From Sinonovacula constricta (taxonomy: Eukaryota; Mollusca; Bivalvia; Cardiida; Solecurtidae): DNA of 64,000 nt. The notes under the pieces were generated by a model that made no database searches, was not told the DNA's origin, and saw only the letters and a list, made by a program, of their open reading frames with translations. The stretch lies in assembly GCA_007844125.1 (NCBI GenBank), contig CM017571.1, positions 31,474,356-31,538,355 on the forward strand, given 5' to 3'. Numbering within the stretch: the stretch's first letter is position 1; every line of letters starts with the position of its first letter. Positions 16,490 through 57,350 of the stretch are shown piece after piece. A program made the position numbers and the translations under genes.

Positions 16490-17045
16490 ATAATAGGGGT
16501 AGATTCTCACCCTGTCTGACACCAATTTCGCTTACTAAAAATTCTGAGAAATCGCCATCAACAGGAACACAGGACTTAATATTTTGATAAATATTTTTAT
16601 TTCATTGAAACCTTTTCCAATGATGTTGTGATTAGAAGTTTGTGCCATAGACCAGCTCTCCATACGGTATCAAATGCTTGGGAGAAGTCAATAAAGGAAC
16701 AGAACAACTTCTTCTTTTGTCGTTTCAGAATTTCTTTAAGAGCCTGAAGGGTATAAATATGGTCTATGCAGGAGTAGTGTTTTCTAAAACCAGCTTGATT
16801 TTCATTTAATACGTTATTCTATCTAAAAAGAGACTAAGTCTGGAATTAAGAACGGATGTGAATAATTTTGCAAGGCAACTTAATAGAGTAATTGGTCTGT
16901 AATTAGATGCTTTTGTCAGACTTCCGTTGTTTTTATAGATCGGAATGATTGCACTCTTTAACCATGATGATGGAATGTGCCCGGTATTTAAGACAGCATT
17001 GCAAAGTGCGGTATATGCAGATAACAATTTTTTGTGAAGCTTTTA
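16490..17045 (-). pseudogene. LINE reverse transcriptase fragment
   Basis: The frame from about 17045 reads LCNAVLNTGHIPSSWLKSAI, PIYKNNG, NYRPITLLSCLAKLF. After a frameshift near 16815 it continues NENQAGFRKHYSCIDHIYTL, then LFCSFIDFSQAFDTVWRAGL and, in another frame, VRQG. These are the reverse transcriptase blocks of a jockey/CR1-like non-LTR retrotransposon: the NYRPI motif, the F-DF--AFD box with one catalytic Asp, and G-RQG. The YADD block is missing and stops interrupt the frame, so it is dead. The element is truncated at both ends and abuts the Tc1 element. Confidence 0.85.
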
Positions 17046-17189
17046 TGTACTCATTTAATATACTAGCCCTAATTCCTAAACCTCCACCTAATACAAGAGG
17101 AATTTGCTAAGACGTCTTGTAAGCTATTCTAAAGAAAATTGGGATGAAGAATAATGAATATAAAACACACAATCAGTTAATTTTTTTTA

Positions 17190-18105
17190 TTAAAACAATG
17201 ATTTCATTTAGGAAATTTACTGCAAATCACCAAGGTGCCGAAATTCATGTTCACAAAAACATCAACATTTAAGCACACAGTCTTAATAGCGAGTGTGTCC
17301 ACCTTCCGCTTGACTGACGGCTAAACATCGGGTCCTCATAGACGTCGCATTGTAACGGAGGTATCGCTGGCTAATGCTATCATAGCAATTGATGACGTCG
17401 GCCGCCAGATTGGCAAGATCAACATTAGGTCCGCGTTGACGAACTCTCGCCGGTCTAACTCGTCCCAGACTTGCTCAATAGGATTGAGATCTGGGCTACA
17501 AGATGGCCAATCAAGGCTCCTAACGTTGTTGTCTTGCAATAGTTGAAGAGTCGCCCTAGCTGTGTGCGGCCGTGCATTGTCCTGCATGAATATCATGCCT
17601 CTGTTTTCTCGTATGTGAGGAATGGCAACAGGGCGCAGAATTTCATTTTGATATCTGGCGGCGTTAAGATTTCCATCAATCACTAATGCGTTGGTCTTCG
17701 TGTGTAGAGAGAAGCCGGCCCAGGTCATAACAGACTCCCAACATACTGATCCTTCTCCACCACACATGAATCATGGAGCGCCGCAAATTAAATCGGGACT
17801 CGTCAGTGAACAACACATTAGCCCAGTCAGCTCTAGTCCATCTAACATGCTGACGAGCCCACGAAGACGCCGCTGGCGATGTCTTCGCGTCATAACAAGT
17901 CCCACATATGGTCTTCGGAAACGAAGACCGGATTCTTTAAGTCAGTTGATAACAGTTTGGGATGAAATATGACGTCCATGATGGCCTACAGTGGTATGTG
18001 CTGTACTCGTTGCGATTGTAAAACGACGTCGACAGTGTGAAAGTCTTAAGTGTCTGTCTTGACGTACAGAAGTGACGCGTCGTTTTGCCGGTAGGGGCCT
18101 TAGAA
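17190..18105 (-). pseudogene. Tc1-type (DD34E) transposase, frameshifted
   Basis: The minus-strand pieces are in order. First comes a helix-turn-helix region, about 18105-17940 (SVRQDRHLRLSHCRRRF, HISSQTVIN). Then FRRPYVGLVMTRRHRQRR, then NVLFTDESRFNLRRSM with the first catalytic Asp (about 17800). Then, in another frame, MQDNARPHTARATLQLL with the second Asp, and WPSCSPDLNPIEQVWDEL with the catalytic Glu. I count 34 residues between the second Asp and the Glu, which is the Tc1 spacing. A further frameshift after DELDRR moves the C-terminus (YDSISQRYLRYNA) to another frame. The N-terminal DNA-binding domain is cut at about 18105 and I could not identify terminal inverted repeats. Confidence 0.88.
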
Positions 18106-18235
18106 TTCTCCGGCTGCCGCTACCTGTAGCGGGGTAAGAACCCTCCAAAGGTAGCCCACCTGTTTGCCGTGGGTGGCGACCCTGTATCTCCACGACGAGG
18201 GGACATCTTGGTTTAAGGCTTTAAGAGAGCATAAA

Positions 18236-19440
18236 CACATCAGGTATAAAACTCGAAAACATTTCTGAAAACCCCACAATTGGACATCCACCATGGCAAC
18301 TCCGTTCTCCTGATGTGAATTTAGAACTTTGTAAAAATAAAAAGTCGAACACAGATCCTTTGATTTTACGATCTGAATTTCTCGAACATCTTGACAAGTA
18401 CTCTGATCACCTTCATATATATATACTGATGGTTCAAAGACGGACACTCATGTTGGCTGTGCTTCCGTAAGTAATAGCCACTGCATTAAACAAAGACTTC
18501 CTAACAACTCGTCTATCTTCACCGCTGAAATCCAGGCTATAAATCTAAGCCTTGATTTCATTTCAGAACATTCCGGTGAAAAATATGTTATATTTTCAGA
18601 CTCATTATCTGTATTGCAAAGCATAAATTCACTGAATTATTCAAATCCACATGTTCGCACTGTTCTTGTCAAACTTCAGAGTTTATACGGCACTAACGAA
18701 ATCTCCTTCAGTTGGCTTCCTAGTCATGTAGGCATCCGAGGAAACGAAGATGCTGACAGGGGTGCAAAATCTGCCTCAGCCCTTACTGAGACAGATCTTT
18801 GCATCCCACACACTGATTTTAAACCACTTATTTACCGACATATTTTAACCAAGTGGCAAACAAGTTGGGACAGTATTGTTTGTAACAAATTACACGTAAT
18901 TAAACCTAACGTCGGTGCCAATGTCTCTGCTTGCAGAGAAAGTCGACGAGAAGACGTAGCTCTTACCCGCTGTCGCATTGGACATACTAGATTGACTCAT
19001 TCATATCTCTTGAAAAGAGCAGTTCAACCTGTATGTGTTCCTTGCCAGGAACCACTGACAGTCAACCATATTTTATTACAGTGTATCGACACAGACCACA
19101 TACGGTCGAAATATTTTAATGTCCATAAAATGTACGAACTATTTAGGACAGTGTCGGATTCTAAACTTGTTTGCTTCTTGAACGACATTGGTATTCTTAG
19201 TAAGTTATAAATTTTTAAACTGTTTATTTACCAATCGTCATATTTTTAAACCGTTTTATGTGTTGACCTGTTTTCAATTGTTATTTATTTTCTTACCTGA
19301 TAGTTTTTCTATTTTTCTGTATTTTACATGCGTAGTTTGGTTTTAACCTGATTACGCTTTATTCACATTTAACTTTGTATTCGGCGCCGTATGACCTATT
19401 AAGTGTCGGTGTGCCGTAAAACCCAAATAAAAAACTTTCC
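18236..19440 (+). pseudogene. LINE 3' end: RNase H domain and C-terminus
   Basis: The frame starts ENPTIGHPPW and reads RSEFLEHLDKYSDHLHI. An indel in a TA run near 18420 shifts it to YTDGSKTDTHVGCASV. It then stays open to the TAA at 19208-19210: FTAEIQAINLSLDFI, VIFSDSLSVLQSI, SWLPSHVGIRGNEDADRGAK, then a C-terminal RRED, ALTRCRIGHTRLTHSYLL, CQEPLTVNHILLQC. The four RNase H acidic/His blocks (DGS, AE, SDS, H-GI-GNE-AD) are all present. The tail ends GTAAAACCCAAATAAAAAA at about 19435. This is a 5'-truncated jockey/I-like element, in the opposite orientation to the reverse transcriptase fragment at 16490. Confidence 0.88.
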
Positions 19441-34700: not shown

Positions 34701-37700
34701 TCCAATACAGACATATATTTGGACAAATGCCCAGATTGAAAAGCCATATTAAACGAGCTGTCAGGCGAGTCAAATACAACTTTACCATCTGGGCACGAGC
34801 CCAAATATATTATCTGTATTGTTATACTTCAGTGTAGAATGACCTTTTTATTCTATATCCATTTTTTGTTATATACTTAATACTCTAGATTATACTTCCC
34901 TTATTACTAACTTGGACTTATAAAAAACAGAGATTTAAATAAAATAAGTTTACAAAGACATTATATATATATATATATATATATTTCATATATAACAATT
35001 AGTTAAATATTATGACTATACCACCGACAAACGCTTCCCTTATTTGAGACAACTGAAGAGAACTCTCTTATTATAAATGATACATAATGTAAAACACTTG
35101 CATACATCAGTTTCATCTGGATACTTATTCATTAACAGCTTTTATTGTATATTGTTTGTGTCCGAGATAATGAGATTACTGTCAAATAATATAAAATACA
35201 ATATGTCCAATACAGCTTATTACAGGATGATCACGTGGTACAACTTGACTGCATTGATTGATAAAAAAATATGGATATAGAATAAAATTGTAGTAGGCAC
35301 CAAAAATGGACAAGAAAATATAGTATAAAGGACTCTCAGGGGCAAGCAGTCATAGTCACCAATCGTTAGCTCCAGCCCCAGCCCTTCAACTATGGGTTCA
35401 AGTCCCAGTAGACATGCTAACTTTTATCTGGAAAGATGGTTCAGCTTTTGTTTATTCTGCACCAGCATAATGTTAAGAACAAATATAACATTGCATGTAT
35501 TAACAGATCATTCTCTTGAGTGTTTTCATGATAACCAACAACAGGTGGCTCTCATCACCATTGACAATGCTGAAATAATAAGTTTAATTTTTCAAACTTT
35601 AACAAAATCAATACATTTGTTTTAATGATTCTAAGAAAGCCAACAAAGACAATCTTATCTAGCAAATCCTTCTCCACCCTAATTAGAGATAATACACTTT
35701 TTAACTAAAATGTAAAAGAAAGTTTCTCCAAAATATTTAAATATTAATTGATGATGGCTGACTATTGTCTCCTGTAATTGTGCCCATTATAACTTTATTC
35801 CCAATCTATCTTTTTAAACCTTGAATAGACTTTTATACAATACAGAAGCATTCTCTTTAATGCATCCATCACAGACTCTAGGCTTTTATGATCTACTTTA
35901 TCAAATGAAACCTTCCCAACAGGATATTGTCTCATGGATCTGCCAAGAACAATATGGTATAATTAAACCTTGGCTGCCACACCAATACTGTTTTTTTGTT
36001 TTGTTTTATTGTTCAATCGCACTGACATGAAAACGGTCATAATGGCAACATCCAGCAAATTATTAGTGGAGGAATACCCCAGACTAATGTCTAAGAAGAA
36101 CCACTGGCGTGCGACAGGGTAGTTGGAAAACCTCCCCTCAAGGTAATTCACGCCCCAACCAGGACTCTAACCCATGCTGTAAGGGGGATAGGAGTTACAA
36201 GTCACCGAGTGTAGCCACTCCGCCACAGATGCTCCTTCACTGATAATGATACACTCCTTCCAAAGTCAATAAAACATAGATGAAAACTGTAAAGTGCAGA
36301 GACAAACAAAGCAAATAATCTATCCACAGTAGTCTTGAAGCACTACAAATGTCAAGACATTATACCCTTTGTGTACTTCTTTTAGAGCAATGCATTCTTT
36401 CAACAGATGAATGCAATGAAAACCAATGAATGTCATGAAAACCAATCTCCTGTAAAAGAAAGATCTGTCAAAAGAAAATGTTTATGTTGTATGTCGTATT
36501 AAAATGGGTTTCACCTTACAATCATTTGTAACATTTTTTGTATTTTTCAAGTTAATCTAGATCATGTAGTAGTGCATTTTATGAGTTAAAGGTGTAAGTA
36601 TATATTTTGTAGCTTACATTCTTGACTCATTTCTATCCTCTGAAAATACTTAAGACATTTTATATCCCTCCTTCTTGCCTCATTTCTATCCTCTGAAAGT
36701 ACTTAACAAATTTTATATCTCACCTTCTTGTCTCATTTCTATCCTCTGAAAGTACTTAACACATTTTATATCTTATCTTCTTGAATAATTTCTAATCTCT
36801 GAAGGTATTCGTGCATTTTATATCTCATCTTCTTGCCTCATTTCTATTCTCTGAAAGTACTTGTACATTTTATATCTCATCATCTTGAATAAATTCTAAT
36901 CTCTGAAAGTACTTAACACATTTTATATCTCATCGTCTTGAATAATTTCTAATCTCTGAAAGTACTTGTACATTTAATATCTCATCTTCTTAAATAAATT
37001 CTAATCTCTGAAAGTACTTAACACATTTTATATCTCATCGTCTTGAATAATTTCTAATCTCTGAAGGTACTTGTACATTTTATATCTCATCTTCTTGAAT
37101 AATTTCCAATCTCTGAAAGTACTTGTACATTTTATATCTCATTGTCTTGAATAATTTCCAATCTCTGAAAGTACTTGTACATTTTATATCTTATCTTCTT
37201 GAACAATTTCTAATCTCTGAAAGTACTTAACACATTTTATATCTCATCTTCTTGAATAATTTCTAATCTATGACAGTACTTGTACACTTTATATTTCACC
37301 TTCTTTAGTTATTTCTCTTCTCTACTTATTATGTTTTTAGTGTTTAGTATTTCACCTTTTTGACTCATTTCTTCCTTCCGCTACAGTGAGACCAAGCTTC
37401 CTGATCCAATCTAGCCTTGGTTTGACCATGGACCTCAGTAACTCTGTTGTGTCATGTATGCTGTCAACCAGACCCTTTGTCATGGTATACCTCTCCTTAC
37501 CCACGCAGCCAGCCTTATAACCTGTGTCAAATGTGCATTTGTTTTTAATGTTGTCATTTTGGATACAATCTGCACAAACTGTTTTTAACCCTTATCGATC
37601 TACCATAGTCAAGAAATACAAAATCTTAAATGAATTGCTATATGTGCTGATTACAAGGCAAATTACTAGAGACTCCACAGCAAAATTGCAAGGGACAGCT

Positions 37701-40700
37701 TGCTAAACCGGGTCTTATCTTTTTGCCAAAGCCTGAATATTTCTTGCTTAGCAGGAGCAGTGTTAAGAAAGGTACATATTATGTTCATAGTGACTGTGTT
37801 TAACATCAAAGCAATGAAGAAAAAACATATTCATAAAAAGGTAATTATGTCCATGTCAAACATACAAAGCAAACAATTTTGAAAGAACAACAGAAAGTAA
37901 CAGCTTTGGAATCTGTAAGTTTATGATTGTAAAATGTGCATACATATGAAGCAAAGTTAAATTATATAGAGAGGAATCAAAATAAAACGGCACCTTTCTC
38001 AGTGAGTCTCTCGTCAGCATTGTCAGACCGTAGAGACAGTCTGAACTCAGCTCTGCTTGGGAACATCCTGTATGGCTCATTGGTCCCCAGAGTGGTGAGG
38101 TCATCGATGAGAACCCCAACATACCCCTCTGTCCGGGCAACAATGAATGGCTCCTCTCCTGTGACATTCAGCGCAGCATTCACACCTGCTATCACACCCT
38201 GTGGGAAAAAAATGTAAACTAGTCCATTGATGGGGAAATGCTATCACACCCTGAGGGAGAGAAATGTAAACTTGTCAATCTGAGACATGTTACCGCACCC
38301 TGAAGGACAGAAATGTAAACTTGTCTGTCTGAGACATGCTATCACATCCTGAGGGAGAGAGATGTAAACATGTCCATCTGAGACATGCTACATGCTATCA
38401 CATCCTGAAGGAGAGAGATGTAAACATGTCCATCTGAGACATGCTACATGCTATCACATCCTGAAGGAGAGAGATGTAAACTTGTTCATTAATTTAGACA
38501 TGCTATGTGTGTGTATCACACCCTGAAAGAGAGAGATGTAAACTTGTCCACTAATGTAGACATGCTATGTGTGTATTACACCCTGAAAGAGAGAGATGTA
38601 AACTTGTCCATTAATGTAGACATGCTGTGTGTGTGTATCACACCCTGAAAGAGAGAGATGTAAACTTGTCCACTAATGTAGTCATGCTATGTGTGTGTAT
38701 CACACCCTGAAAAAGAGAGATGTAAAATTGTCCATTAATGTGGACATGCTATGTGTGTGTATCACACCCTGAAAGAGAGAGATATAAACTTGTCCATTAA
38801 TGTGGACATGCTATGTGTGTGTATCACACCCTGAAGGTGAGAGATGTAAACTTGTCCATTAATGTGGACATGCTATGTGTGTGTATCACACCCTGAAGGT
38901 GAGAGATGTAAACTTGTCCATTAATGTAGACATGCTATATGTGTATCACACCCTGAAAGAGAGAGATGTAAACTTGTCCATTATTGTAGACATGCTATAT
39001 GTGTATCACACCCTGAAAGAGAGAGATGTTAACTTGTCCATTTATGTGGACATGCTATATGTGTATCACACCCTGAAGAAGAGATATGTAAATTTGTCCA
39101 TTAATGTAGACATGCTATGTGTGTGTATCACAACCTGAAAGAAAGAGATGTAAACTTGTCTATTAATGTAGACATGCTATGTGTGTGTATCACACCCTGA
39201 AAGAGAGAGATATAAACTTGTCCATTAATGTAGACATGCTATATGTGTATCACACCCTGAAAGAGAGAGATGTTAACTTGTCCATTTATGTGGACATGCT
39301 ATATGTGTATCACACCCTGAAGAGATATGTAAATTTGTCCATTAATGTAGACATGCTATGTGTGTGTATCACAACCTGAAAGAGAGAGATGTAAACTTGT
39401 CCATTAATGTAGACATGCTATGTGTGTGTATCACACCCTGAAAGAGAGAGATGTAAACTTGTCCATTAATGTAGACATGCTATGTGTGTGTATCACACCC
39501 TGAAAGAGAGAGATGTAAAATTGTCCACTCATGCAAACATGCAATGTGTGTGTATCACAACCTGAAAGAGAGAGATGTAAACTTGTCCATTAATGTAGAC
39601 ATGCTATGTGTGTGTATCACAACCTGAAAGAGAGAGATGTAAACTTGTCCATTAATGTAGACATGCTATGTGTGTGTATCACACCCTGAAAGAGAGAGAT
39701 GTAAACTTGTCCACTAATGTAGACATGCTATGTGTGTGTATCACAACCTGAAAGAGAGATATGTAAATTTGACCATTAATGTAGACATGCTATGTGTGTG
39801 TATCACAACCTGAAAGAGAGAGATGTAAACTTGTCCACTAATGTGGACATGCTATATATGTAACACCCTGAAGGAGAGATATGTAAATTTGTCCATTAAT
39901 GTAGACATGCTATGTGTGTGTATCACAACCTGAAAGAGAGAGATGTAAACTTGTCCACTAATGTGGACATGCTATATGTGTATCACACCCTGAAGGAGAG
40001 ATATGTAAACTTGTCCATTAATGTAGACATGCTATGTGTGTATCACACCCTGAAGGTGAGAGATGTAAACTTGTCCATTAATGTAGACATGCTATGTGTG
40101 TGTATCACACCCTGAAAGAGAGAGATGTAAACTTGTCCACTAATGTGGACATGCTATATGTGTATCACACCCTGAAGGAGAGATATGTAAATTTGTCCAT
40201 TAATGTAGACATGCTATGTGTGTGTATCACAACCTGAAAGAGAGAGATGTAAACTTGTCCATTAATGTAGACATGCTATGTGTGTGTATCACACCCTGAA
40301 AGAGAGAGATGTAAACTGTTCATTAATGTGGACATGCTATGTGTGTGTATCACACCCTGAAGAAGAGAGATGTAAACTTGTCCATTAATGTAGACATGCT
40401 ATGTGTGTGTATCACACCCTGAAAGAGAGAGATGTAAACTTGTCTATTAATGTAGACATGCTATGTGTGTGTATCACACCCTGAAAGAGAGAGATGTAAA
40501 CTTGTCCATTAATGTGGACATGCTATATGTGTATCACACCCTGAAGGAGAGATATGTAAATTTGTCCATTAATGTAGACATGCTATGTGTGTATCACAAC
40601 CTGGAAGAGAGAGATGTAAACTTGTCCATTAATGTAGACATGCTATGTGTGTGTATCACACCCTGAAGAAGAGAGATGTAAACTTGTCCATTAATGTAGA

Positions 40701-43700
40701 CATGCTATGTGTGTGTATCACACCCTGAAAGAGAGAGATATAAACTTGTCCATTAATGTAGACATGCTGTGTGTGTGTATCACACCCTGAAAGAGAGAGA
40801 TGTAAAATTGTCCACTTATGTAGACATGCTATGTGTGTGTATCACAACCTGAAAGAGAGATATGTAAATTTGTCCATTAATGTAGACATGCTATGTGTGT
40901 GTATCACAACCTGAAAGAGAGAGATGTAAACTTGTCCATTAATGTAGACATGCTATGTGTGTGTATCACACCCTGAAAGAGAGAGATGTAAACTTGTCCA
41001 CTAATGTAGACATGCTATGTGTGTGTATCACAACCTCAAAGAGAGATATGTAAATTTGACCATTAATGTAGACATGCTATGTGTGTGTATCACAACCTGA
41101 AAGAGAGAGATGTAAACTTGTCCATTAATGTAGACATGCTATGTGTGTGTATCACACCCTGAAAGAGAGAGATGTAAACTTGTCCACTAATGTGGACATG
41201 CTATATGTGTATCACACCCTGAAGGAGAGATATGTAAATTTGTCCATTAATGTAGACATGCTATGTGTGTGTATCACAACCTGAAAGAGAGAGATGTAAA
41301 CTTGTCCATTAATGTAGACATGCTATGTGTGTGTATCACACCCTGAAAGAGAGAGATGTAAACTGTTCATTAATGTGGACATGCTATGTGTGTGTATCAC
41401 ACCCTGAAGAAGAGAGATGTAAACTTGTCCATTAATGTAGACATGCTATGTGTGTGTATCACACCCTGAAAGAGAGAGATGCAAACTTGTCTATTAATGT
41501 AGACATGCAATGTGTGTGTATCACAACCTGAAGAAGAGAGATGTAAACTTGTCCATTAATGTAGACTTGCTGTGTGTGTGTATCACACCCTGAAAGAGAG
41601 AGATATAAACTTGTCCATTAATGTGGACATGCTATATGTGTATCACACCCTGAAGGAGAGATATGTAAATTTGTCCATTAATGTAGACATGCTATGTGTG
41701 TGTATCACAACCTGAAAGAGAGAGATGTAAACTTGTCCATTAATGTAGACATGCTATGTGTGTGTATCACACCCTGAAAGAGAGAGATGTAAACTTGTCC
41801 ATTAATGTGGACATGCTATATGTGTATCACACCCTGAAGGAGAGATATGTAAATTTGTCCATTAATGTAGACATGCTATGTGTGTATCACAACCTGGAAG
41901 AGAGAGATGTAAACTTGTCCATTAATGTAGACATGCTATGTGTGTGTATCACACCCTGAAGAAGAGAGATGTAAACTTGTCCATTAATGTAGACATGCTA
42001 TGTGTGTGTATCACACCCTGAAGGAGAGAGATGTAAACTTGTCCATTAATGTAGACATGCTATGTGTGTGTATCACACCCTGAAGAAGAGAGATGTAAAC
42101 TTGTCCATTAATGTAGACATGCTATGTGTGTGTATCACACCCTGAAGGAGAGATATGTAAATTTGTCCATTAATGTAGACATGCTATGTGTGTATCACAA
42201 CCTGGAAGAGAGAGATGTAAACTTGTCCATTAATGTAGACATGCTATGTGTGTGTATCACACCCTGAAGAAGAGAGATGTAAACTTGTCCATTAATGTAG
42301 ACATGCTATGTGTGTGTATCACACCCTGAAAGAGAGAGATATAAACTTGTCCATTAATGTAGACATGCAATGTGTGTATCACACCCTGAAAGAGAGAGAT
42401 ATAAACTTTACCATTAATATAGACATGCAATGTGTGTATCACACCCTGAAAGAGAGAGATGTAAACTTGTCCATTAATGTAGACATGCTGTGTGTGTATC
42501 ACACCCTGAAAGAGAGAGATATAAACTTGTCCATTAATGTAGACATGCTATGTGTGTATCACACCCTGAAAGAGAGAGATATAAACTTTACCATTAATAT
42601 AGACATGCTATGTGTGTATTACACCACCCTGAAAGAGAGAGATGTAAACTTGTCCATTAATGTAGACATGCTGTGTTTGTGTATCACACCCTGAAAGAGA
42701 GAGATATAAACTTGTCCATTAAAGAGGACATGCTATGTGTGTGTATCACAACCTGAAAGAGAGAGATGTAAACTTGTCCATTAATGTAGACATGCTGTGT
42801 GTGTGTATCACACCCTGAAAGAGAGAGATATAAACTTGTCAATTAATGTGGACATGCTATATGTGTATATCACACCCTGAAGGTGGAAATGTTAACTTGT
42901 CCATTAATGAGGACATGCTATGTGTGTGTATCACACCCTGAAAGAGAGAGATGTAAACTTGTCCATTAATGTAGACTTGTTGTGTGTGTGTGTATCACAC
43001 CCTCAAGAATAGAGATGTAAACTTGTCCATTAATGTGGACATGCTGTGTGTTTGTATCACATCCTGAAAGAGATAGATGTAAACTTGTCCATTAATGTGG
43101 ACATGCCATGTGTGTATATCACACCCTGAAGGTGGAAATGTCCATTAATTAGGACATGCTACCACATGCTGAGGGAGAGCGATGTTAGCTCACCCATAAA
43201 TGTGGACAGGTTATCACACCCTGAGGGAGAGCAATGTAAACTTGCCCACTACTTGGGACATGTGATCACTCCCTCAGAGCGATGCATTTTGTCTATTAAC
43301 TGAAAAATACTATCACACCCACAGCTAGACAGGAGGGACGATTCATTGAAAAATACTATCACACCCACAGGTAGAGAGAAGGGACGATTCATCGTAAACA
43401 GAAAAAAAATCCCAGCAGTTTATATACACTTGTTGTTATTGTAATAAATGATCTTAAGCAGTTATTGTCACAATGCTTGCAGTGCTTCTATCATTACACA
43501 TCCTCTGAGTGTTGCCTAACATGGTGGGCTACCCAAGTGACTTTACAGGCAAACAAAGTGTTATCTCCCATTCATAGTAATGGCATTTGCCAAAGAAAGT
43601 ATTCTTTAGGCCTTGTTGAATTGCATCACAAGAATTATAAAAACAGAGCATTCACGTGAAGAAAACTTGGCAGAAGCATCTTTATGGGACTAAAATTGTA

Positions 43701-46700
43701 TAAAAATGCAGAAAACAGTGCATTCAAGAGGAGAAAATTCTTTTCCATGAAGTTGCATAATAAATAGACTTGGTTAAAACTGTATCAATTTGATGCAGAA
43801 AACATAGCATTAAATAAATGAAAACCTTCTGGCAAAGCAGTTGTAAACATTATTAACTATTAAAAAGACAAACCAATATACATATACCACCCCATGTGAT
43901 TACAAAATAAGTGTAAAAACTGTTACAAGTATTTTGTTTTGCATATTTTCCCAATCAATCATTAAATGTTTAGATAGACGCATTTTATAACTGAAATTAC
44001 TGAAGAATGGGTTTTTTAAAATGTGGGCCTGTGTTGGTCCTTGTTGGTCATTACTGGTCCTTGTTGGTCTTTGCTGGTCCTTGTGATTATAGTGTTTCAT
44101 GACACTGACTTATTGTACCAGGATTGTTGCATGCTCACCATTTTATCATAGAAAGGCTTAAAGTCCTTTGGGATGCAATTACATTTTTCATTTCTGGTCA
44201 TTACATATAGACGGATATGAAGTATCTATTTGTTGTTTAACGTGTTAACTTCAGCTTGATACACACTGAGCTAGGTTTCTGTGGGTAAATATCGCAACAA
44301 TTGTAGCTGATAATTAGTGTTTGGTTTTGTTACATTGCTGCATGTTAACAGACGCTGTACAAAGAAGCTTTAAATAGTGAAATTGATAATTATCTTTATG
44401 ACAAATATCAGAGAAATTTTCAGCAAATTGCAAACTTTTTTCTTGCTAATAAGTGTCACTCATGGCAATTTCCAAAGCCTATTAGAAATATATGGACAAC
44501 AATCCATACAAGAATATCAGATTTTATATAATACAACATGGTCTTATACAATACTTTTTGATACATTAATATGATTATGTTTGTTTGTTTGTTGGGTTTA
44601 TTGTCCCACCAACAGTATTTCAGTTATCTGGATATGGTGTCCACTTGATGCAGATACAGTGCTGCCTTCACTGTGTATAGCATGCCGTGGACACCTGGCA
44701 TGATAGCACACCCAGTCACATTATCCTGACACCAGACTAACCACTCGTGGAACTACCCTCATATTTGCTTGAACGTTAGCAAGGGAGCTATACCACTACC
44801 TTTTTTAGTGCCTTTGGTATGTTGTGGCCCGGGATTGAACCCGGGGACCCCCGTTCCTGGTGCTGATGCTCTACCAATTGTGCTACCCGGTCCGGTCTTA
44901 TTTGATTATGTTGTGAAACCTCACTTTAGATTATGACCTGTGGTTCATCAACAGTTCCATCCTAATATTTGACTTTGGTCTACCAGCATCAAAATAGCTT
45001 GACCAACATAAGGACAATGATTCAATTAGTGCAATATTTATGTTTATTGTGTCCCTGATCTATTGGCTAAGGTATGAGAATTTAGTCCTTGGGAAAGATC
45101 ATTTTCTCTGCATTGCTTCAATAAGTCACTGTGTGAGCACTGGTTCTACCCAGGAAGTAAGCAATATGATAAAAAAGATATAAAGGATTAATGGCTCTTC
45201 CATATTTTATCTTTAAGATTACACCAAACATCCTAGCTAGCTCTAATTTACCTGTGCAGCAGCCTCCTCGTACCCAGTGGTGCCGTTGATCTGTCCCGCT
45301 AGGAAGAGGTTTGCTATCGGCCGCGTCTCCAGTGATGGCTTCAGCTGTCGAGGGTCAATATAGTCATACTCTACACCATAACCTGCACGAATAATCATAG
45401 TAAGTCTATTTAAGTATTTTTCTATATTAATCATAGTCAAATGTAGGCAATACCATGACAACAAATCAATACCTTAATTGGGAACTATTATGTTCATGTG
45501 ACCCTCACAATGTGGGATTCAGTTGCAGTCGGGGTGAGCTAACTTGTGGTTTGCCAGTGGTTCTACCGAGACATAAGTTTGTGGCATGCTATACACAGTG
45601 AAGGCAGCACTTTATCTGGTTAAAGTGGACAAGTCTCCACTGAAACACTGGTGGTGCAATGATAAACCCAATAAACAAACACAAACAAAAACCATTTGAA
45701 TATTCAAGAACACAGCCACCCAGACCAACTCTGTAAAAAATGATATGTGTGACATAACCAGCATAGTGGCCTATATTATTGTGGGGATCTTCCATTAAAA
45801 GATCCACCATTCCTGTTTTCGTGATCACTTCTGGCTGCTCAAGGTTAAGGTCTGTACGACTTTTATTATTTACAAGGTTCTGGTTATCTGTCACGAAACA
45901 CATATCAGTTTATCTCAATTCTTTATCAAGTGTCTCAAATTTGACTACATAATTAGGCCATGCCTTCTACAGGTACATTGCTTTCCAAAGCAATGATTGC
46001 AGCACTTTTATTTACAGATACATTTTAAGGTTAGTAGCTCTCTACCTATTAAAAATTACTAATAGTTTTATGTTCACTTGCCCTCACGTATCATACAGAA
46101 GCATTCATGTACATATCTTTACCTGGTTTGACAAGCCTACACTGTTCAAGGCCTGGTATAAGTTGGATGATCCTCTGCTGGAATTCCTCAGGCATCGTAC
46201 AACTCAGGCCATTCGGGTAGATCAGGTCACTGTCAAGCCCTGAATATGTAACAAAAACATGATAATCTGCTGATAACTGTCGGCTATAATAACAAAGCTA
46301 TACCCAGCTACCTCACATTTCTGACTTTTTCCAACTTGTAAAGCCTACAACTTGTTAATCCCTTACCACATGTGTACTAATTCCACTTGGGGCAAAGGAC
46401 CTTAATGAGATAAGATTTGCTGTGCACCAGTCATTTTACCCATGAATCTGTTTGGCATCTTCCTTCATCAAAATAGCTGGATGTCACTATAATGATCATA
46501 ATTGGTTTCTACAATGTATTTTCAAAATTAAAACAAACCATTACATGTTTAAGGTTGTCTCCATCAGTTTGGACCAGATTTTTTCCTCTCAAAAAAACAA
46601 ATAAATTATTGTTGCCTGAAAAGACCTTACAAAATGCTGATTATTGATGTCCTACATCTACGTGAAAAGTGAAGCATGACACAACAATCATCATTACAAA

Positions 46701-54344: not shown

Positions 54345-57300
54345 AGATTGGGTCATAGTATATCATCAGACAGGTTCAAGGGATATCATCAGTGTCTTAG
54401 TAGAAGGATATCACCAGAGTCTTAATAGAGGGATATCATCAGAGTCTTAGTAGAGGGATATCATCAGTCTTAGTAGAAAGATATCACCAGTCTTAGTAGA
54501 GGAACATCATCAGATTCTTAGTAGAGAGATATCACCAGTCTTAGCAGAGAGATATCATCAGAGTCTTATTGGGGGATATCATCAGAGTCTTAGTAGAGGG
54601 ATATCATCAGTCTTAGTAGAGAAATCACCAGAGTCTTAATAGATAGATATCATCAGTCTTAGTAGAGGGATATCACCAGACTCTTAGTAAAGGGATATCA
54701 CCAGTCTTAATAGAGGGATATCATCAGAGTCTTAGTAGAGGAATATCATCAGTCTTAGTAGAGAGATATCACCAGTCTAAGTAGAGGGACATCATCAGAT
54801 TCTTAGAAGAGAGATATCACCAGTCTTAGTAGAGGGATATCATCAGTCTTAATAGAGGAATATCACTAGAGTCTTATTAGAGGGATATCACCAGAGTCTT
54901 AGTAGAGGGATATCATCAGAGTCTTAGTAGAGGGATACCATCAGTCTTAGTAGAGAGATATCACCAGTCTTAATAGAGGGATATCACCAGAGTCTTAATT
55001 AAGGGATATCATCAGAGTCTTAGTAGAGGGATATCATCAGTCTTAATAGAGAGATATCACCAGTCTTAGTAGAGGGCCATCATCAGATTCTTAGTAGAGG
55101 GATATCATCAGTCTTAGTAGAGAGATATCACCAGTCTTAGTAGAGGGACATCATCAGAGTCCTATTAGAGGGATATCATCAGAGTCTTAGTACAGAGATA
55201 TCACCAGTCTTAGTAAAGAGATATCACTAGAGTCTTAGTACAGGGATATCACCTGAGTCTTGGCAGAGGGATATTATCAGTCTTAGTAAAGAGATATCAC
55301 CAGAGTCTTAGTAGAGGGATATCATCAGAGTCTTAGTAGAGGGATATCATCAGAGTCTTAGTACAGAGATATCATCAGTCTTAGTAGAGAGATACCACCA
55401 GTCTTAGTAGAGGGACATCATCAGAGTCTTATTAGAGGGATATCATCAGAGTTTTAGTAGAGGATATCATCAGAGTCTTAGTAAAGAGATATCATCAGAG
55501 TCTTAGAAGAGGGATATCATCAGTCTTAATAGAGAGAGACCACCAGTCTTAGTAGAAGGACATCATCAGATTCTTAGTAGAAAGATATCACCAGAGTCTT
55601 ACTAGAGGGATATCATCAGTCTTAGTAGAAGGATATCACAAGTCTAAGTAGAGAGATATCACCAGAGTCTTAATAGAGGGATATCATCAGAGTCTTAGAA
55701 GAGAGATATCACCAGTCTAAGTGAGGGATATCACCAGTCTTAATAGAGGGATATCATCAGAGTCTTAGAAGAGGGATATCATCAGTCTTTGTAGAGAGAT
55801 ACCACTAGTTTTAGTAGAGGGATATACTCAGAGTCTTAGTAGAGGGATATCACCAGAGTCTTGGTAGAGGGTATCACCAGCTTTAGTAGAGGGATATCAC
55901 CAGTTTTAGTACAGGGATACCAACCGAGTCTTAGTAGAGGTATATCAGCAGTCTTAGTGGAGGGATATCATCAGATTCTTAGTAAAGGGATATCATCAGA
56001 TTCTTAGTAGAGGGATATCATCAGAGACTTACTAGAGTGACATCACCAGTCTTAGTAGAGGGATATCACTGGAGTCTTAGTTAATGGATATCACCAGAGA
56101 ATTAAAAGAGGGACATCACCAGGTTTGGTAGAGTGATATCACCAGCCTTAGTAGGGGGATATCACCTAAGTCTAAGGTAAGGGATATCATCAGTGTCTGG
56201 GTTATGGTAGTTCATCAGAGTCTGGTTCAAGGCTATCATCAGACTCATGTTCAAGGATAACTTTTGCGTCTGCATCAAGAGATATCAGAGCCTGGATCAA
56301 GGGATACCATCAGAGTCTGTTTCAGGGGATATCATCAGTCTGAATGAAAGGGATATTATCAGAGTCTGTGTCAAGGGATATCATCACAGTCTGAATGAAA
56401 GGGGATATCATCAGAGTCTGAATGAAAGGGATATATTCAGAGTCCGTGTCAAGGGATATCATCATAGTCTGAATGAAAGGGATATCATCAGAGTCTGAAT
56501 GAAAGGGATATCGTCAAAGTCTGAATGAAAGGGATATCATCAAAGTCTACATCAGGGGATATCATCAGAGCTTGGGCAAGGGATATCCTCAGAGTCTGGG
56601 TCAGGGGATACCATCCATGTCTATGTCTGGGTCAAGGGATATCATCACAGTCTGAATGAAAGGGATATCATCAAAGTCTACATCAAGGGATATCATCAGA
56701 GCTTGGGTCAAGGGATATCCTCAGAGTCTGGGTCAATGGATATCATCTGAGCTTGGCTCAAAGATTGACATCAGAGTCTGGGACAAAGGTTGTCATCAGA
56801 GTCTGGGTCAAAGGTTCTCATCAGAGCCTGGGTGAAAGGTTGTTATCCTAGTCTGGGTCAATGGTTGTCATCATAGTCTGGGTCAATGGTTGTCATCAGA
56901 GTCTGGGTCAAGGGATATCATCCAAGTCCGGGTCAAAGGATTGGGTCAAGGGATATCATCAGAGTCTGGGTCAAAGGATGTCATCCAAGTCCGGGTCAAA
57001 GGATATCATCCGAGTCTGGGTGAAAGGTTTTACTCCGAGTCTGGGTCAAAGGTTGTCATCGGAGTCTGGGTCAAAGGATATCATCCAAGTCCGGGTCAAA
57101 GGATTGGGTCAAGGGATATCATCAGAGTCTGGGTCAAAGGATGTCATCAGAGTCTGGGTCAAAGGATGTCATCCAAGTCCGGGTCAAAGGATATCATCCG
57201 AGTCTGGGTGAAAGGTTTTACTCCGAGTCTGGGTCAAAGGTTGTCATCGGAGTCTGGGTCAAAGGCTGTCATCGAGTCTGGGTCAAGGAGTATCATCAAA

Positions 57301-57350
57301 GTCTAAGTCAAGGGTATTAGAGTCTGGGTCAAGATGTATCATCAGACATT
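54345..57350. repeat. About 25-bp minisatellite, 3 kb, two sub-families
   Basis: From 54345 to about 56200 the unit is close to AGAGTCTTAGTAGAGGGATA followed by TCATC (25 bp), with common shorter variants lacking AGA (about 22 bp). From about 56200 to 57350 the unit changes to AGAGTCTGGGTCAAGGGATA plus TCATC. Intermediate forms ('CTGAATGAAAGGGATATC') occur at 56330-56550. Roughly 120 units in all. The reading frames through it are artefacts. It lies upstream of the first MTO1 exon in the window, either in an intron or in flanking DNA. Confidence 0.96.

Follow-up and report, generated by a model that had tools for sequence, protein, structure and literature searches.

The stretch of DNA considered here, 64,000 nucleotides (nt) of the bivalve Sinonovacula constricta (assembly GCA_007844125.1, contig CM017571.1, positions 31,474,356 to 31,538,355), carries the animal MTO1 gene, a homolog of bacterial MnmG/GidA. 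This whole stretch is called the window, and positions are counted from its first letter. The MTO1 exons lie on the minus strand, on which the two arrays at exons D and E described below are also read. They were located by a tblastn search using E. coli MnmG and with the help of homologs from bivalves and from transcripts. Nine exons, A to I, run from 51183 to 28466; they span 22.7 kb of genomic DNA, provide an open frame of 353 codons, and are separated by introns with GT-AG borders throughout. Exon C (45252-45382, 131 nt; found by tblastn and the exon map) ends in the donor CAG/GTAAAT, the slash marking the splice point here and below. It is the upstream partner of exon D (37994-38198, 205 nt; found by tblastn, by the exon map and open frame, and in the transcript-derived protein P0001), which is followed by exon E (37356-37521, 166 nt; exon map and P0001). 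An earlier sequence-only reading had taken the exon next to the array for the 131-nt one; the adjoining exon is in fact exon D, and the 131-nt exon is exon C. The intron between C and D comprises 7053 bases, of which the 3' part, about 5.2 kb, is a minisatellite built from copies of the intron's own 3' splice site and the first bases of exon D.

P0001 was found by protein search. It is a protein of 345 amino acids from a 3036-nt contig with the source "lgn", which we take to be the Logan assemblies of public reads. Aligned with the nine joined exons, it is identical at 342 of 345 residues without a gap, the start residue being one of the three differences. A contig joining exons that are spread over 22.7 kb of the genome must have been assembled from spliced RNA, or else from a spliced copy. 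In a tree of 21 MTO1 proteins, the window protein and P0001 group with those of Mercenaria, Mactra and Dreissena (support 100/97), a bivalve group that is presumably the Imparidentia.

The minisatellite, a 3' splice-site "mirage" (a tandem duplication of an exon-intron boundary), occupies positions 38199-43392. When units are anchored on the junction with a pattern allowing up to 3 substitutions, 87 are found, from 43365 to 38198, and the true exon D acceptor (38199/38198) is the last one. The true acceptor is thus preceded by 86 junction units, close to the roughly 80 decoys estimated from the sequence at first sight. AG is present in 85 of the 87 units (84 of the 86 decoys) and CAG in 82 (81 of the decoys). 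The program TRF reports a 62-bp unit in 78.2 copies with 90% matches between 38340 and 43130; the units at both edges are shorter and add to this number. Among the 86 gaps between junctions, 62 bp occurs 49 times and 60 bp 20 times. Unit length ranges from 43 to 64 bp overall, mostly 60-62 bp in the core and 43-56 bp at the edges, with the five units nearest the exon spaced by 49-56 bp. The core unit reads GGACAAGTTTACATCTCTCTCTTTCAG/GGTGTGATA followed by a CA-rich stretch. Its exonic part, GGTGTGATA, corresponds to the first 9 bases of exon D and is exact in 57 of the 86 decoys, with one change in 24 further decoys; the full 12 exonic bases, GGTGTGATAGCA, are found in one decoy, the unit adjoining the exon. 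The 62-bp form can be read as the shorter one with about 10 bp of additional CA-rich sequence within the exonic copy. The terminal unit (38198-38250) is the true junction itself, with a branch-point-like TTTAC at -17, a T7C3 tract, and CAG/GGTGTGATAGCA. At its start (38175-38198), exon D contains a direct repeat, GGTGTGATAGCA GGTGTGAATGCT, and it is at the beginning of the second GGTGTGA of exon D that the nearest unit's exonic part stops; this repeat is possibly related to the first duplication.

The similarity between the array and the true junction far exceeds that of control sequence. Aligned without gaps over 54 columns, the unit consensus and the true junction are identical at 43, giving a score of 53. 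By comparison, 4686 segments from elsewhere in the window have a mean score of 13.1 and a maximum of 27, and 2000 shuffles reach at most 25. In a test of 17 MTO1 exon boundaries, each against its own 200 shuffles, the exon D acceptor scores 54 (shuffle maximum, 22), and just this acceptor and the exon E donor exceed all of their shuffles; no duplicate above its shuffles was found in the window for the remaining 15. The core 20-mer TCTCTCTTTCAGGGTGTGAT has 30 exact copies reported in the whole assembly (1.22 Gb, 177 contigs), all of them within the array, which is also the number present in the window; such whole-genome counts are lower bounds and include exact matches only, so that diverged copies could exist outside the array. 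The claim that the array consists of a 3' splice acceptor and the first coding bases of the adjoining MTO1 exon is thus confirmed, neither a chance level of similarity nor a reported exact copy of the satellite away from this exon having been found.

These controls also bear on the idea that a CT-rich satellite merely happens to end near the exon and resembles an acceptor by chance. Tandem arrays are indeed common in this genome: counting those of at least 300 bp, ten spaced 10-kb pieces contain 6, and the 194 kb around MTO1 contain 15. One of them, a 49-bp array near 3.0 Mb of the same contig (L023:846-2747 of G000:C17), has acceptor-like units, CATTTCAG/AGGCGAC, with no exon seen beside it. 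However, the alignment score of 53 includes the exonic bases and is nearly twice the highest of the 4686 control scores, the exon D acceptor stands out among the 17 boundaries, and the reported exact 20-mers are confined to the array. We therefore give chance similarity almost no credence; it is ruled out by the control segments, the shuffles, and the genome-wide count. When these 21 arrays are ranked by the density of strong acceptor-like sites on a single strand, the MTO1 array comes first with 15.6 per kb. L023:846-2747 is second with 6.8 per kb, and third is a two-copy array of 340 bp, whose two sites amount to 5.9 per kb; the remaining arrays have at most 2.0 per kb, and non-array sequence about 0.33.

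The direction of copying can be judged from the protein. The first codons of exon D encode GVIAG, which aligns with GLLAG of E. coli MnmG. Because of this match, exon D must be older than the array and must have been copied into it, rather than the reverse. That the true site fits the register of the array as one of its units would also be expected if the array had come first and had given rise to the present acceptor and first exon bases; with a peptide conserved down to E. coli, this order of events is very unlikely. The intronic side of the acceptor, on the other hand, could have been homogenised by the array. Units at both array edges carry the junction, and two blocks of five units are found again 17 and 21 units away, with no more than one difference in any unit. 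Similar core units, shorter edge units, and recurrent blocks are as expected of an array growing from the inside, and the recurrent blocks are suggestive of length instability.

As splice sites, most decoys appear complete. When scored with matrices based on human splice sites, the true acceptor receives 10.3, the highest of the nine native acceptors (the other eight score from -2.2 to 6.0), and its tract has 10 pyrimidines in 10 positions from -14 to -5. The 84 decoys with AG average 8.7 (range, -9.8 to 10.5): 12 score above the true site and 72 do not, while 77 score above all eight other native acceptors (that is, above 6.0). Outside the decoys, such a score is reached by none of 98 AGs in the C-D intron and by 4 of 766 in the other seven introns. 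A strong pyrimidine tract is found in most decoys, and a branch-point-like yUnAy motif in all 84, most commonly TTTAC at -17 as at the true site. A weak true tract facing strong decoys, as had been supposed from the sequence alone, is ruled out by these scores. Because the true site and the decoys are equally strong, the choice of the last copy cannot depend on local strength.

The last copy is nevertheless the one seen in use. In P0001 the join between exons C and D reads AAAQ/GVIAG, the product of the true acceptor, and the join between E and F reads NESK/S, the product of the true exon E donor; this one sequence thus shows regular splicing at both sites. Of the two outcomes that the sequence-only reading had offered, discrimination of the last copy is supported by this matching protein. 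The other, use of decoys to give frameshifted or extended messages, would not yield usable extended messages, as each of the 84 decoys would lead to a premature stop, 83 of them inside the array, after a median of 22 codons. Overall, then, that reading is partly supported: it was right about the origin of the array and wrong about the weak true tract.

The same premature stops are what would be expected if decoys were used at a meaningful level and the array were a poison element, lowering MTO1 expression through nonsense-mediated decay in a length-dependent manner. The high scores of 77 of the decoys fit this idea, as does the fact that, judging from their order, decoys are transcribed ahead of the true site. 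However, the single transcript-derived protein reflects splicing at the true site, and no truncated decoy-type protein stood out when a hypothetical decoy-spliced product was used as a query. Among 120 listed of 1481 protein matches, no decoy-spliced product was seen: the top match covers 60% of the stretch at 89% identity and differs in its tail, and matches covering 94-100% of the query have 50-60% identity. This is a weak negative, because products subject to nonsense-mediated decay would be rare in assemblies. A query with an open stretch of the array (42260-42547) likewise found no candidate protein. We consider a poison element unlikely.

Decoys might also serve in recursive splicing, in which exon C is first joined to a decoy and the regenerated donor (CAG/GTTGTG or AGG/GTGTGA) enters further rounds of splicing up to the true acceptor. 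In 19 of the 84 decoys AG directly precedes GT, an arrangement that resembles a ratchet point. However, CAG/GTTGTG scores -4.1, below every native donor, and AGG/GTGTGA (1.6) leaves one extra base and shifts the frame. With regenerated donors this poor, and with no strong donor directly after the acceptor as a ratchet point has, recursive splicing is rejected as the main mode and is highly improbable in this intron.

The explanation that we favor, and hold to be likely, is that the array is a neutral mirage minisatellite and that the exon behind the last copy determines its choice. Some 40 bases from the end of the MTO1 intron and the first 12 bases of exon D would have been duplicated in tandem, and unequal exchange or slippage would then have enlarged the array to 86 extra copies. 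These would act as decoy 3' splice sites; splicing would normally take the last copy alone, and the remainder would leave with the intron. We propose that the last copy is used because no other copy is followed by a complete exon that has a donor of its own at the downstream end (exon definition). The minus strand of the array contains 346 GTs, the best of which scores 3.0 as a donor, so that no donor in the array reaches the 3.2 of the second weakest native donor. The array itself is most likely without function.

Several observations weigh against this explanation. The exon D donor scores 0.0 and is the weakest of the eight native donors (the other seven score from 3.2 to 6.5); 62 of the 346 array GTs score at least as high, and exon definition by way of the donor is therefore not clear-cut. 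All splice scores come from matrices based on human frequencies and not trained on S. constricta. P0001 is a single transcript-derived sequence, which could stem from an intronless or second MTO1 copy, and unproductive decoy products could be made and degraded. Nor does a gradient mark the exon end as the birthplace of the array: edit distances to the true junction are 11-15 for the five units adjoining the exon, 9-15 for core units, and up to 24 for far-edge units, so that units near the exon are no closer to the true junction than the core is. Finally, the AG is unchanged in 70 core units, but 3 of 42 neighboring column pairs, the AG among them, are unchanged; selection on the decoy AGs is not detectable, being neither shown nor excluded.

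A second, degenerate array lies on the other side of exon D, downstream of exon E. It occupies 36617-37356 and consists of 14 copies of 52-56 bp in register with the true exon E 5' splice site (AAAAG/GTGAAAT at 37356/37355), and it is probably copied from the donor end of exon E, although its tie to the exon is less firm than that of the first array. This assignment draws on the register and on the distal unit, which scores 33 against the real exon end and donor (maximum of 28 in 5044 controls and 29 in shuffles); the core consensus, which is not significant by itself, scores 28 against the true donor, a value reached by 6 of the 5044 controls, with a shuffle maximum of 36. In the boundary test described above the exon E donor scores 30 against a shuffle maximum of 29. 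When the window's four arrays of 300 bp or more are placed at random, the probability that two or more fall at exon ends is 0.003, at a tolerance chosen after the data had been seen. The GT is retained in 3 of the 14 copies and lost in 11, having become AT in 10 and GA in 1. The nearest copy retains GT and scores 3.2, equal to the true exon E donor, and a surviving decoy donor at 36724 scores 6.7, above all eight native donors. The contrast between the two arrays, with AG kept in 84 of 86 copies in the first and GT in 3 of 14 in the second, is no more than suggestive, because it compares two arrays and homogenisation spreads single changes.

Other features of the region can be described briefly. 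A 3-kb array of 25-bp units is located at 54349-57346, upstream of exon A; it was considered as a third mirage and rejected, as no MTO1 exon was found beside it. At 16597-19210, open reading frames resemble, by eye, the reverse transcriptase and RNase H of a non-long-terminal-repeat retrotransposon and a mariner/Tc1-like transposase. No match to the N-terminal half of MTO1 (about residues 1-320) turned up between exon A and a point 110 kb upstream of the window (G000:C17:31538356-31648355, L010-L020); a very long intron, a split gene, and a 5'-truncated copy are candidate readings. The open reading frame of P0001 starts within exon A, and in the Mactra model P0004 the resemblance to MTO1 likewise begins no earlier than about this exon.

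The MTO1 array provides a natural experiment in splice-site choice, in which dozens of similar 3' sites, each locally complete, precede the real one, and the last copy is set apart mainly by what follows it. Counts of decoy junctions in RNA would gauge exon definition against local strength and the order of transcription. A broader claim, which we regard as doubtful though worth stating, has two parts taken together: that minisatellites in this animal preferentially arise on splice junctions, making mirages a recurrent mutational class outside chordates, and that message-breaking decoys are tolerated upstream of an acceptor, whereas downstream of a donor homogenisation turns them into an inactive form (GT to AT). 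If this were true, the MTO1 array would be a natural many-way competition test, and a complete local 3' splice site would be insufficient for use.

Mirages are known from amphioxus as tandem duplications of exon-intron boundaries in Adh3, the globins BflGb6 and BflGb9, TnC, and PGBD5 (PMC3087553, PMC3902484). According to these reports, both 5' and 3' boundaries can be affected, many copies contain AG or GT, the clusters undergo concerted evolution from which their boundaries are left out, and regular splicing is not disturbed (PMC3087553, PMC3902484); the repeat unit is given as about 10-160 bp (PMC3087553). The MTO1 array is similar in that its unit of 43-64 bp spans an exon-intron boundary, most copies retain AG, and P0001, as a single sequence, shows regular splicing. 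It differs in its host, a bivalve mollusc rather than a cephalochordate, and in its 86 extra copies over 5.2 kb, compared with 3 and 6 units in two BflGb6 haplotypes. It differs further in the retention of AG by 84 of 86 decoys and, probably, in the presence of two arrays of opposite type in one gene. To call such an array unusual, as the sequence-only reading had, is fair, but the kind had already been described.

A splice signal also underlies the minisatellite of the human interferon-induced gene 6-16, said to be IFI6/G1P3, where 12-bp units reportedly lie at an exon end; the title of an article on it (Nucleic Acids Res. 1995, 23:1854, listed among the references of PMC2572611) describes it as a minisatellite of splice donors of which several copies are used. 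In MTO1 the signals are acceptors rather than donors, and no use of decoys was seen. In the Rogers model, introns are gained when splice sites or proto-splice sites are duplicated in tandem, which likewise produces repeats at boundaries; here, however, the intron was already present, no new intron or exon is seen, and the copies stay intronic. Tandem repeats at an exon-intron boundary are also described, in a study of internal tandem repeats in human segmental duplications, as creating alternative splice sites (PMC2812944). To judge from the parts available, reports on C. elegans minisatellites near alternative exons (PMC4039745), Lucina haemoglobin introns (PMC4732748), and Conus introns (PMC3862624) have no bearing on the MTO1 case, and the text available on an abalone intron with a length-variable 27-bp minisatellite contains no link to a splice site (PMC6905558). 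No mollusc mirage was found in the literature searched, the scope of which excluded most subscription papers. The MTO1 array thus files as a very large addition, from a bivalve, to the known mirage kind, extending to a mollusc, and to a much larger copy number, a phenomenon reported from amphioxus.

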